A DNA stretch of 21,558 nucleotides from a virus. Shown here piece by piece: positions 18,496-21,558 of the stretch. Within the stretch, counting starts at the first letter, position 1; every line of letters begins with the position of its first letter. The stretch spans positions 1-21,558 of the IMG/VR virus record IMGVR_UViG_3300032224_000874. One strand, given 5' to 3'. Below the pieces are notes generated by a model. That model ran no database searches. It was given only the letters and a program-made list of their open reading frames with translations, and was not told the origin of the DNA. The position numbers and the translations under genes are program-made.

Positions 18496-18670
18496 CAAAG
18501 AACAAATAGAAAATCTACTTACAGAGATACTGATGCTGGCGCTCGTCGCAGCTCCACACATCAGGCCGTTGATCACAGACATAGCTATCGGAGTAGCTGA
18601 TCTGTTGCCGGCAGAAGCAGTAGAAAGAAGCAAAGAGTACGCACAGTACAGAGCAAGGGGAATTGTATGA
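18473..18670 (+). CDS. Small hypothetical protein with hydrophobic helix
   Basis: This encodes 65 residues from ATG 18473 (MVAITETDKEQIENLLTEILMLALVAAPHIRPLITDIAIGVADLLPAEAVERSKEYAQYRARGIV). GAGAAGGAG at 18457-18465 is a good ribosome site with 7-nt spacing; ATG 18455 would place that site inside the gene. The middle is a long apolar helix, weaker than a standard membrane span because of Pro, Asp and His. The stop overlaps the next start (ATGA). No homology recognised. Confidence 0.55.
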   Translation: MVAITETDKEQIENLLTEILMLALVAAPHIRPLITDIAIGVADLLPAEAVERSKEYAQYRARGIV

Positions 18671-19191
18671 ACCTAGATGAAGAACTACAACAGATCATGG
18701 ATGACGCATACAAGAACATCGCAAGAGATGGCTTGCTTGCTGAGATGGAAGACTTCATACATGTAGAAGAAGAACTAAATGACAACAACCCAGTTCTTAA
18801 CAATCGTGTAGACATGTGGTACATGACAACCGAAGAAGTAGACGACGGAAGAATGCAAGAGTACATCGAGCTTGACTTCGAAGGTCGTGAGTCACTGTTC
18901 ATTAACTACGCTGATTCATTCTCTAATGCAAGCGATTTCCTTGGTGACCAAGATCGTTTCAAGTGGATCAAGAAAGCTGAACCAGTTGGTATTATCAGCA
19001 GGTTCTCAACACCATCCGGCAAAGATGATCTGACCACCAGGGTCACGGTGCTGATGACACAGCGTGGTGCACATGTGATTGTGCGCAAGACTGATGACAC
19101 GTTGATCTGTGAGTCAATACCAAAGCGAGAAATATACAAGCAAGACATGAAGTTCTTATCGTCGTTCTTCGACGCTTGCTTTACTTGGTAG
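18667..19191 (+). CDS. Acidic hypothetical protein
   Basis: This encodes 174 residues from ATG 18667 in an ATGA overlap. The N-terminal half is strongly acidic and helical (MNLDEELQQIMDDAYKNIARDGLLAEMEDFIHVEEELNDNN), the C-terminal half is mixed strand/helix (GIISRFSTPSGKDDLTTRVTVLMTQRGAHVIVRKTDDTLI) and ends FDACFTW. No motif is recognised. It is the last gene before the structured 400-bp region; its TAG stop lies inside the first copy, inverted, of the hexamer array at 19187-19220. Confidence 0.6.
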   Translation: MNLDEELQQIMDDAYKNIARDGLLAEMEDFIHVEEELNDNNPVLNNRVDMWYMTTEEVDDGRMQEYIELDFEGRESLFINYADSFSNASDFLGDQDRFKWIKKAEPVGIISRFSTPSGKDDLTTRVTVLMTQRGAHVIVRKTDDTLICESIPKREIYKQDMKFLSSFFDACFTW

Positions 19192-19220
19192 CTGCTACCG
19201 CTACCGCTACCGCTACCGCT
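19187..19220 (+). repeat. GCTACC hexamer array with one inverted copy
   Basis: One inverted unit GGTAGC (19187-19192) is followed after a single T by four direct GCTACC units and a partial GCT (19194-19220). The inverted unit covers the TAG stop of the preceding gene. Any direct copy can pair with the inverted copy, so several alternative stems are possible. It is too short for a CRISPR array. Confidence 0.8.
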
Positions 19221-19240
19221 GCGGAGTTTGATTCGCGTGT

Positions 19241-19279
19241 GAGATTCCCCTCCCCTCGTCGGGTGGGGTGGGGTGTCTC
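19241..19279 (+). terminator. Long GC hairpin at the end of the 13-19 kb gene block
   Basis: GAGATTCCCCTCCCC (19241-19255) faces GGGGTGGGGTGTCTC (19265-19279): 12 Watson-Crick pairs, one T-G wobble and two T-T mismatches, loop of 9 nt. Downstream is CTCGTCTCCG then a run of six A, which in the reverse direction would read as a T-run before the stem, so it could terminate on the minus strand as well. Confidence 0.6.
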
Positions 19280-19292
19280 CTCGTCTCCGAAA

Positions 19293-19343
19293 AAATTGCG
19301 AGGTTGCGAAAATTGCGAGACGGTGATAGCGTGGATCTCGCAA
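19293..19343 (+). repeat. TTGCGA iteron-like cluster
   Basis: Three direct copies of TTGCGA(G) begin at 19296, 19304 and 19313, two within AAATTGCGAG. An inverted copy TCTCGCAA lies at 19336-19343 and pairs exactly with TTGCGAGA at 19313-19320. Clustered copies of this kind suggest protein binding, for instance an initiator or repressor. Confidence 0.5.
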
Positions 19344-19470
19344 GTTCGCACAACAGAACTGCTTAGGGTCTTACCCTTTCTATCCCTAAGTTAGTAAGTC
19401 CGCTAACACTTATGGACTACTTGGCTGACATACCCAAGCAAGTTAGTGAGTATGTCTTTGTCTCTTATAT

Positions 19471-19554
19471 CCCGTGAGCACTTAGGGTTAGCACCCCATA
19501 CCGCAACCCCCTGACTCTAAGTGTTCACGGGTTACAAGAATAAACCCTTGTAAC
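19471..19554 (+). repeat. Nested inverted repeats before the AAA+ gene
   Basis: CCCGTGAGCACTTAG (19471-19485) pairs with CTAAGTGTTCACGGG (19517-19531) over 15 positions; the single difference is a G-T pair. A second stem, GTTACAAG (19531-19538) with CTTGTAAC (19547-19554), begins at the last base of the first. ATG 19594 follows 40 nt later. Confidence 0.75.
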
Positions 19555-19593
19555 TATTACCAATAACCAATACAACAAGGGAGAATAAATCAA

Positions 19594-20334
19594 ATGGAAG
19601 CAATACCTAATACCCAACCTCTTGCCCCTTTGGGCGAGTGGGAACAAGCAGACTTTGCCTTAGCTAATGGCTTAGGGCGAGTCCTATTACACGGTGAGCC
19701 CGGTACTGGTAAGACCTATTACGGTCTCCACTATCACCTCAACGACAAGCCATCGTTCCGCCTAGTCTGCAACGACGAGATGTCTGAGGGTCATATCCTT
19801 GGCACTTGGAAGCAGGAGACTAACGACAACGGTCAGGTGGTTACTAAGTTCCATGAAGGCCCAGCAGTAGAGGCTTGGCGCACTGGTGGTCGCTTAGTCA
19901 TTGACGAGATCAACATGGCTAATAGTGCAGTGACTGGTGTGCTTATGTCCATGATTGACACTAGCCATAGTTCACGGTGGCGTAACCCTCAGACTGGTGA
20001 GATCGTTACTCCTCACCCTGAGTTCTCAGTCGTGGCAACTATGAACGGTGAGCCTGATGACTTGACCCGTGCTATCCGTGACCGCTTAGTGGTTCAACTA
20101 GAGATCAACACACCACACCCTGACGGTGTTATGTCGTTGCCTGAGTACCTTAGGGAGATTGCCCTATCGTTCGGTAGTCGTAGCGGTAAGGATCGCTACT
20201 CACTACGCAACTTCGTAGAGTTCGCGCAACTCTATAGCAAGACTGGCAACTTACAGCACTCAGCCCAAGTGTGTCTGCCTCGTATCCAAGAGACCCTTAT
20301 GGACACGATCCTCTTAGCAAAGGTGGAAGCATAA
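19594..20334 (+). CDS. MoxR/CbbQ-like AAA+ ATPase
   Basis: This encodes 246 residues with AAGGGAG at 19577-19583. Walker A GEPGTGKT (34-41), Walker B LVIDEI (101-106), sensor 1 VVATMN (146-151) and arginine finger region RAIRDRL (159-165) are all present. EGHILGTW (65-72) fits the region after strand 2 in MoxR/CobS-type ATPases. The C-terminal lid is short. Such ATPases usually remodel a partner protein together with a VWA-domain protein. The next two genes overlap or abut and may be the partner components. TTA leucine codons and CTTAG strings are frequent here and rare in the earlier genes, so this gene belongs to a compositionally different block. Confidence 0.85.
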   Translation: MEAIPNTQPLAPLGEWEQADFALANGLGRVLLHGEPGTGKTYYGLHYHLNDKPSFRLVCNDEMSEGHILGTWKQETNDNGQVVTKFHEGPAVEAWRTGGRLVIDEINMANSAVTGVLMSMIDTSHSSRWRNPQTGEIVTPHPEFSVVATMNGEPDDLTRAIRDRLVVQLEINTPHPDGVMSLPEYLREIALSFGSRSGKDRYSLRNFVEFAQLYSKTGNLQHSAQVCLPRIQETLMDTILLAKVEA

Positions 20335-20804
20335 TGACTAGCCTCATGGACTTAGCAGTAAGCGTTGAGAAAAACCTCAACGATAAGCGAGGCTTTGGCT
20401 TCACTATGAAAGACGCTTGCCTTTACGGCGTAGATACTGACGGACTTGTAGTCCTTTGCGATAAGGGTTCTGATATCTATGAACTCTTAGAGGGTTATGG
20501 CGTAGCCGATTACCTTACGGTGTACAGCCATATCGCTGTAGCCACTACGGGTTGGGCTGCACCTAGCGACGAGGACAATGACACTCCACCGTCTGAGCGT
20601 ACTGATAGGCGCAGAGTTCGCCTAGTTGTCACGGCTGACAAGAGTGGCATGGCTAGCGTCTTACGCTTTAGTGATGATCCTGAGCGCATTATCACTGACG
20701 AGGGTAAAGCACTTGGCTCATTGGCTGACGCTATCACTGAGGCAACTAACCACGCCCCTAGTGCTAAGCCTTGGGACTTCTTGGCAGGTGATGACAATGA
20801 GTAA
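20334..20804 (+). CDS. Hypothetical acidic partner of the AAA+ ATPase
   Basis: This encodes 156 residues from ATG 20334, whose A is shared with the TAA of the ATPase gene. An in-frame ATG at 20271 lies inside that gene. The sequence has KNLNDKRGFGFTMKDACLYGVDTDGLVVLCDKGSDIYELLEGYGVADYLTVYSHIAVATTGWAAPSDED, then a charged linker (PPSERTDRRRVRLVVTADKSGMASVLRFSDDPERIITDEGKALG) and ends SAKPWDFLAGDDNE. No family is recognised; strand patterns suggest a compact alpha/beta domain. Translational coupling to the ATPase suggests that the two act in one complex. Confidence 0.6.
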   Translation: MTSLMDLAVSVEKNLNDKRGFGFTMKDACLYGVDTDGLVVLCDKGSDIYELLEGYGVADYLTVYSHIAVATTGWAAPSDEDNDTPPSERTDRRRVRLVVTADKSGMASVLRFSDDPERIITDEGKALGSLADAITEATNHAPSAKPWDFLAGDDNE

Positions 20805-21558
20805 GTACAACTCACTAGCACCTGAAGCTCTTAGTCAGAGACCTGACTTAGCCCATAACCGTTATCAGTCAGCAGGTCAGCCAATGGACATTAGCGGTGT
20901 ATCTGTATCGTTTGGTTCTAAGACCAAGCCTCACACTTATACTGCACCTACTGGTGATGGACTTGTTAGTCGTAGGCTTAGACGCTTTGCTCTTACGCTT
21001 ACTCGTTTCCAGATCCCTAAGGCTTCGACATACGCTAAGCGTTGGGGTGTGTCGGAGACTGCGCTTCAGTCGGCTACTAACATTATTGCTAGTAATGCTT
21101 ACGCTACAGCGTTTGGTGACGATCCAACTAACGGCACTATAGATACCAAAGTACTGGTGTCTCTACTCAATGAGCCTAACCCTAGTAAGGAAGCGTTCCT
21201 AAAAGCCTCGTCATTTATTGGCACTCAGGCTTATCAGGAGATCCTTATGGGTGTCGCTAACCCTGCGCAAGTAGGTGTTATGTCTGACATGAACGATACG
21301 GTAGTTCGTAACTGGCTATCGGGCATGAGGTGGCGGTGTATCCTAGAGATCAACGATCAGGACAAGATCAGGCGTAGGAACGCTAGGAATCAGTACGCAA
21401 GGTTGGCTTCGTTCATAGAGAACCAGTCAGAGGAGAACGCTAAAGCGTTTAGTTCCAAGACTGCCAAAGACGCTAAACGTGCTGACACCAGTGAGTTCGG
21501 TAACGGTAAGGCTCAGGTGGCTGAGGGTGGCGGTTGGTATCCGCTGTATGTCTCTAAG
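20797..21558 (+). CDS. Unrecognised protein, open at the right edge
   Basis: The frame from ATG 20797 overlaps the previous gene by 8 nt and stays open to the end of the window (254 codons). Residues 1-100 include SLAPEALSQRPDLAHN, VSFGSKTKPHTYTAPTGDGLVSRRLRRFALTLTRFQIPKASTYAKRW, then a helical middle (TALQSATNIIASNAYATAFGDDPTN). The last third has EINDQDKIRRRNARNQYARLASFIENQSEENAKAFSSKTAKDAKRAD and GGGWYPLYVSK at the edge. The charged, helical linker near the end could lead into another domain beyond the window; in MoxR systems this would often be a VWA domain, but no MIDAS motif (DxSxS) is visible here. No function is assigned. Confidence 0.6.
   Translation, partial: MSKYNSLAPEALSQRPDLAHNRYQSAGQPMDISGVSVSFGSKTKPHTYTAPTGDGLVSRRLRRFALTLTRFQIPKASTYAKRWGVSETALQSATNIIASNAYATAFGDDPTNGTIDTKVLVSLLNEPNPSKEAFLKASSFIGTQAYQEILMGVANPAQVGVMSDMNDTVVRNWLSGMRWRCILEINDQDKIRRRNARNQYARLASFIENQSEENAKAFSSKTAKDAKRADTSEFGNGKAQVAEGGGWYPLYVSK

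Follow-up and report, generated by a model that had tools for sequence, protein, structure and literature searches.

A non-coding patch between two transcription units

The window analysed here is the whole of the linear, 21,558-bp IMG/VR virus record IMGVR_UViG_3300032224_000874 (freshwater setting, bacterial host). Its genes include those for head and tail proteins, a YqaJ exonuclease and WhiB-like proteins, and because the major head protein is ~42% identical to its counterpart in Streptomyces phages, the virus looks like an actinobacterial phage. No close annotated phage was found, all ATPase matches lying below 30% identity, and the last ORF of the window gave no match. The patch of interest is non-coding and lies between ORF 18667-19191 and an AAA_5 ATPase ORF at 19594-20334. 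It holds a predicted structured leader RNA of ~240 nt, whose 3' end is the ribosome-binding site of the MoxR-like ATPase gene. For ORF 20797-21558 a full-length homologue in record L052 carries the VWA DxSGS motif, and the ATPase gene followed by the VWA-homologue gene makes a MoxR/CobS-like plus VWA pair in a phage. The features of the region are as follows.

19187-19220, no strand assigned: GCTACC array with one inverted GGTAGC, just past the stop of ORF 18667-19191, with some overlap
19241-19279, plus strand: C/G-rich hairpin closing the upstream unit, terminator-like, lacking a U-tract
19304-19332, plus strand: predicted promoter, -35 TTGCGA (19304-19309), 17 nt, -10 TAGCGT (19327-19332), start predicted near 19339
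19362-19390, plus strand: hairpin P-I, stem CTTAGGG/CCCTAAG, pyrimidine loop UCUUACCCUUUCUAU; compensated stem changes
19395-19412, plus strand: core hairpin P0, TAAGT/ACTTA, loop with strand A (CGCTAAC, 19401-19407); 10 different stems in 14 representatives, all paired
19420-19438, plus strand: core hairpin B, CTTGG/CCAAG, loop made of CU (19425-19426) and strand C (GACATAC, 19427-19433); 16 different stems in 21 representatives, all paired
19442-19448, plus strand: strand A' (GTTAGTG), partner of the P0 loop; 12 different A/A' pairs in 15 representatives
19449-19456, plus strand: spacer A, then strand C' (GTATGTC), partner of the B loop
19463-19539, plus strand: hairpin P-III (19471-19485/19517-19531) with extension TCTT.TA/TA.AAGA using the 5' strand of P-IV; window's clade only
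19531-19554, plus strand: hairpin P-IV, GTTACAAG/CTTGTAAC; cannot form together with the P-III extension
19545-19581, plus strand: possible anti-SD helix, CCCTTGT (19545-19551) with ACAAGGG (19575-19581), given an open P-IV
19594-20334, plus strand: MoxR-like AAA_5 ATPase gene, first downstream gene (Pfam PF07728, E 1.1e-19)
20334-20804, then an ORF starting at 20797: ORFs after the ATPase gene

The original prediction had described this patch as a dense block of repeats and dyads, possibly a replication origin or an undescribed RNA element. Its features resolve into the boundary between two transcription units. On the upstream side, the hexamer array with an inverted copy was found as described, with GCTACC repeated 4.5 times at 19194-19220 and GGTAGC at 19187-19192. 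Short arrays directly after the upstream stop codon were also seen in many relatives, with a unit that varies between GCTACC, GCTACCAGTAACG and CCA (window; L003, L010, L015); in L010 a (CCA)n array occupies the position of the GCTACC array. The supposed terminator hairpin at 19241-19279 does exist as a C/G-rich hairpin, but a U-tract is absent and a terminator rule rejects it. A C-rich hairpin is present at the equivalent position in seven relatives (L001, L002, L038, L042, L043, L045 and L048).

On the downstream side lies the TTGCGA cluster (copies at 19296, 19304 and 19313, inverted partner TCGCAA at 19338), in which 4 of the 21 copies of the window fall within 50 bp. Judged by conservation, we read the cluster as a -35 element with its neighbours in a predicted promoter. 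The pattern TTGCGA-N17-TANCGTGG occurs once in the window and in none of 100 shuffles, and it recurs at the equivalent position in seven relatives (L038, L042, L043, L045, L046, L048 and L049). Variants are TTGCGA-18-TATCGT in L001, TTGACG-17-TAGCGT in L002 and, more distantly, TTGACA in L005. A rule for the E. coli consensus promoter does not accept TTGCGA-N17-TAGCGT. An operator role for the TTGCGA dyad was considered and dropped, the inverted partner not being conserved. A second TTGCGA-N17-TANCGTGG was noted ~3.9 kb downstream of the first in two relatives (L045:4803-4833 and L048:9900-9930), which suggests a family of phage promoters whose -10 (TANCGT) is unusual. In L038, L042, L043 and L046 an ORF is inserted between the promoter and an intact RNA block; the RNA is therefore a discrete unit.

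The remaining features of the prediction were recovered with few corrections: CTTAGGG is repeated (19362 and 19481), the 12-nt direct repeat (19388/19440) is present with identity at 11 of 12 positions, and both the 15-bp inverted repeat with its single G-U pair (19471-19485/19517-19531) and the abutting 8-bp inverted repeat (19531-19538/19547-19554) stand. Relatives do not keep the CTTAGGG pair, the 12-nt repeat or the inverted TTGCGA partner, and these seem incidental. The predicted change in sequence style holds in part: GC skew (~+0.1) and AT skew (~+0.15) do drop to ~0 at 19.2 kb in the window, but in a 38.7-kb relative with this element there is no switch. This bears on the proposed origin or other DNA-level site. 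The repeats, the dyads and the flattening skew would suit such a site, but the skew check in the 38.7-kb relative speaks against it, as do the conservation on one strand, the tolerated G-U pairs, which point to RNA rather than DNA structure, the lack of conservation of the CTTAGGG and 12-mer repeats, and the reading of the TTGCGA cluster as a conserved promoter with a spacer of 17 nt. We consider a DNA-level site very improbable.

The double-pseudoknot core

Folding relative to shuffles was stronger on the plus strand (z -7.1) than on the minus strand (z -3.2). Hairpin P-I lies ahead of the core; its stem varies in relatives (CTATCGGG/CCCGATAG, CTACTGGG/CCCAGTAG, CTTATTGGG/CCCAATAAG, CTTCTAAGG/CCTTAGAAG, CGCCTAGG/CCTAGGCG) around a constant loop. 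The pyrimidine run of this loop (ACCCYUUUC; window 19369-19383) is retained despite the stem changes in L001, L042, L002, L214 and L216. We take the loop to resemble the 3' end of 16S rRNA, and weak pairing with SD sequences could be possible. The conserved core follows at 19395-19456 and is built of pseudoknots, which were absent from the features listed earlier. It is a double pseudoknot in which the loops of the neighbouring hairpins P0 and B pair with the adjacent downstream strands A' and C'. The order is the P0 hairpin (loop A), a spacer, the B hairpin (loop CU plus C), a short linker, A', one A and C'; the single A usually separates A' and C' in relatives as well. Alternative C/C' pairs include TGCATAC/GTATGCA, GGCATAC/GTATGCC, GGCAGAC/GTCTGCC and GATATAC/GTATATT. 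Constant in sequence are the loop dinucleotide CU, in every match to the full architecture, and most of stem C.

Relatives were collected through ATPase protein matches and DNA patterns, and in the final viral scan the ATPase alignment served as the sole query, with the structure descriptor applied afterwards. In the window's clade of nine members, 7 pairs of the core changed on both sides and 98.1% of cells were paired, while no slid control exceeded 1 such pair or 43.5% pairing. The covariation score of the clade exceeded all shuffles and all slid controls, both for the core and for P-III. The full descriptor with loop CU yielded 17 distinct sense-strand matches in 0.4 Mb; no match came from the antisense strand, from any of the remaining 15 loop dinucleotides or from 8 Mb of dinucleotide-shuffled sequence. 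A looser descriptor gave 14 CU matches and two non-CU matches, the latter in low-complexity GC-rich sequence.

Among hand-picked representatives we counted 10 different strand pairs for P0, 12 for A, 16 for B and 9 for C; these representatives were selected by the descriptor, so that the counts describe the element, and the tests are the clade covariation and the descriptor runs. Own partners were paired at 99-100% (A/A' 99%), and mismatched partners at 46% for P0, 49% for A, 58% for B and 87% for C, the last value remaining high because C is partly constant in sequence. The architecture was found with other stems upstream of or near ATPase genes in nine records (L203, L205, L214, L215, L216, L235, L240, L254 and L264) and with a bulged B in four (L233, L256, L257 and L259). 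Candidates in L138, L140, L056, L060 and L066, and coding matches in L038, L047 and L049, were rejected as chance. The comparison of relatives shows the core to fold as a double pseudoknot, on this strand and at this place, and it likewise establishes P-I, P-III, P-IV and the promoter motif. The original prediction of an undescribed RNA element is supported by stems conserved with many compensatory changes, as its proposed covariation check had asked of relatives, on one strand and with no Rfam family.

Known-family searches were carried out with Rfam 15 (4227 models) on the window, L059, L052, L139, L240 and L214, and the best matches stayed far below the gathering threshold (E at least 1). 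Neither a second copy by pattern nor tandem copies were found in the same records. In bacterial and archaeal genomes (~85,000 species) the strict pattern had no match and no copy passed the structural test; a looser pattern gave 27 matches, mostly in apparent coding sequence, of which 0 had B of at least 5 and C of at least 7. Many ATPase relatives showed no recognisable copy of the element; IMG/VR records are frequently fragments, and little weight is hence placed on absences.

In marine T7-like phages the B-C pseudoknot occurs singly, again with CU and CAUAC/GUAUG, where an SSB-like gene and the primase gene flank it. Both of its stems vary with compensation, B as CTTGG/CCAAG, CTTAG/CTAAG, CTCAG/CTGAG, GCTAG/CTAGC and GCTGG/CCAGC, and C as GACATAC/GTATGTC, CACATGC/GTATGTG and AGCATAC/GTATGCT. 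P0 is absent from this version, and a possible A-A' pairing would join AGGAG with a C-rich linker. Upstream of the primase gene in L070-L101, the linker between B' and C' (CUCCCUCCUCCUC) was seen to be the complement of both the SD that follows (GGAGGAGG) and the AGGAG just before B; in the T7-like relative L103 a plain hairpin (AGACATACGC..TGTCT) stands at this place instead of the pseudoknot. The T7-like and actinophage versions may reflect either shared descent or convergence. B and C are also present in an intergenic gap of L139, from a 57-kb contig.

Searches of annotated phages gave no DNA match to the RNA of the window and chance matches only to the T7-like version, and no such pseudoknot was found upstream of the primase genes of isolated pelagiphages, a roseophage, Pasto and CHOED. 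The Pelagibacter phages HTVC200P (L270:434-676) and HTVC119P (L273:426-670) share ~245 nt of conserved non-coding sequence ahead of the primase gene, possibly another phage RNA; it differs from the double-pseudoknot motif, and the HTVC200P stretch, used as a control, has no Rfam match.

The 3' domain and the ribosome-binding site

Between the core and the ATPase gene, the window's clade has an additional domain, P-III and P-IV, which is confined to this clade and absent from L002, L006, L203, L214, L216, L235, L240 and L254. P-III with its extension has 6 pairs changed on both sides and 96.8% of cells paired; P-IV has 2 such pairs and 100% of cells paired, and is weaker against shuffles (30/500). 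P-IV and the P-III extension compete for the strand GUUACAAG. The anti-SD helix appears in the minimum-energy fold of 8 of the 9 clade members and cannot form in L001; being invariant, it is uninformative on covariation. In an energy comparison that leaves the pseudoknots out, the SD-hidden fold of the window is better than the SD-free fold by ~6 kcal/mol (-35.9 vs -29.6 kcal/mol), and 8 of 9 members favour the hidden fold. Most other families have a core that stops ~18-32 nt short of an exposed SD, with an open A/C-rich linker (e.g. ACACAACAACCACAACCCACAGGAG in L240). Because the domain is missing in the eight relatives named above and the anti-SD helix is impossible in L001, a P-III/P-IV switch is not the general mechanism.

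Proposed function and comparison with known systems

We propose that the element serves as the 5' leader in a phage operon, a cis-acting RNA that would control translation of the downstream operon, and we give this reading about an even chance. The leader would run from the promoter through a structured cis-acting RNA round the double pseudoknot to the ribosome-binding site. The core would act as a recognition platform for a protein or ligand upstream of the ribosome-binding site, much as the T4 gene 32 operator does. In the window's clade the added 3' domain could fold in two ways: the P-III extension together with CCCUUGU:ACAAGGG would hide the SD, and formation of P-IV would free it. In most other families the core would simply be followed by an exposed SD ~18-32 nt on. 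Translational control of the downstream operon is most likely on comparative grounds, and the protein-anchored relatives, which keep the architecture with different letters, support it.

The element occupies leaders of the ATPase/VWA operon or gaps between its cistrons; in L214, L215 and L038 it is found between genes. The genes that follow it differ: an ATPase, small ORFs (L006; L235/L240/L254) or, in T7-like phages, the primase. Because it precedes different genes in different phages, the case for gene-specific control is weakened, and mRNA stability, antitermination and a riboswitch stay rivals. A compact pseudoknot that shields the operon mRNA from 5'-side decay (RNase J or RNase E) and keeps structure further upstream away from the ribosome-binding site would fit a placement independent of the gene and at or near the predicted 5' end, the lack of a second copy in the records searched and the open A/C-rich linker of most families. 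However, the constant loop CU and most of stem C exceed the needs of a mechanical block, and in L214, L215 and L038 the element stands between genes and not just at 5' ends, so that we regard a role in stability or processing as doubtful.

The constant nucleotides within variable stems (CU, most of CAUAC/GUAUG, the spacer A) and the mutually exclusive downstream helices of the window's clade would also suit a riboswitch, with the double pseudoknot binding a small molecule and P-III/P-IV as one expression platform; the P-III extension and P-IV both covary, whereas the anti-SD helix shows no covariation and is impossible in L001. A riboswitch is nevertheless unlikely: there is no obvious metabolic gene downstream, no Rfam match, and no structurally passing copy in the genomes of ~85,000 bacterial and archaeal species, among which one would expect to find a metabolite sensor.

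A broader and tentative reading, towards which we lean less than halfway, is an undescribed class of sensory or protein-recruiting RNA, marked by the CU/CAUAC double pseudoknot and shared by freshwater actinobacteria-type and marine T7-like phages of probably unrelated hosts. Such a class would have one conserved partner, either a universal host factor (ribosome, RNase, RNA polymerase) or a widespread metabolite. Few well-supported structured RNAs come from phages of uncultured bacteria, and the present element combines strong comparative support, a compact design and constant nucleotides in variable stems with a range so far limited to phages. If it is a regulator, it would offer a handle on operon control in freshwater and marine phages, and the constant core would point to a shared, identifiable partner.

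Among known leaders, the E. coli alpha-operon RNA bound by S4 forms a nested double pseudoknot that controls translation and contains the start site. The double pseudoknot in a leader is common to both, but the one described here lies well upstream of the SD (~18-130 nt) and has no Rfam match. Processive antitermination, in which the RNA acts on the polymerase as it transcribes so that a long downstream operon is read through, would be favoured by a site just past a promoter or within a long one-directional operon, whatever the gene. The element is also present in T7-like phages, however, and most of these use their own polymerase. The model for such an RNA is HK022 put, a cis-acting early phage leader RNA of ~70 nt just past the promoter, with two stem-loops and RNA polymerase as target (PMC9378689). 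In the window the position is similar, but put consists of two plain stem-loops and not a double pseudoknot, and the pseudoknot here lies near ribosome-binding sites in most families; antitermination is thus a distinctly unlikely explanation. The STAXI motif (RF01728), in which 2-3 tandem pseudoknots lie close to genes for SSB and other DNA-handling functions (PMC2864571), likewise shares a pseudoknot near such genes; its model matched none of six records (the window and five related ones) at E ≤ 10, and tandem copies were not found.

In the T4 gene 32 operator an mRNA-leader pseudoknot is followed by a less structured stretch holding the SD (PMC535899), and in most families described here a phage leader pseudoknot likewise stands upstream of an open stretch with the ribosome-binding site. 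In contrast, the window's clade has P-III/P-IV between pseudoknot and SD, and our element has two interlocked pseudoknots (~60 nt) and P-I in addition, and stands ahead of several different genes. The UUAAA/UAAA repeats of the operator do not occur in the linkers here, which are A/C-rich. The operator is bound by gp32, an SSB; an SSB-like gene adjoins the element in T7-like phages only, and there upstream of it. Of the systems compared, the T4 gene 32 operator is the closest in anatomy, and the element may work alike, whether or not it belongs to this class.
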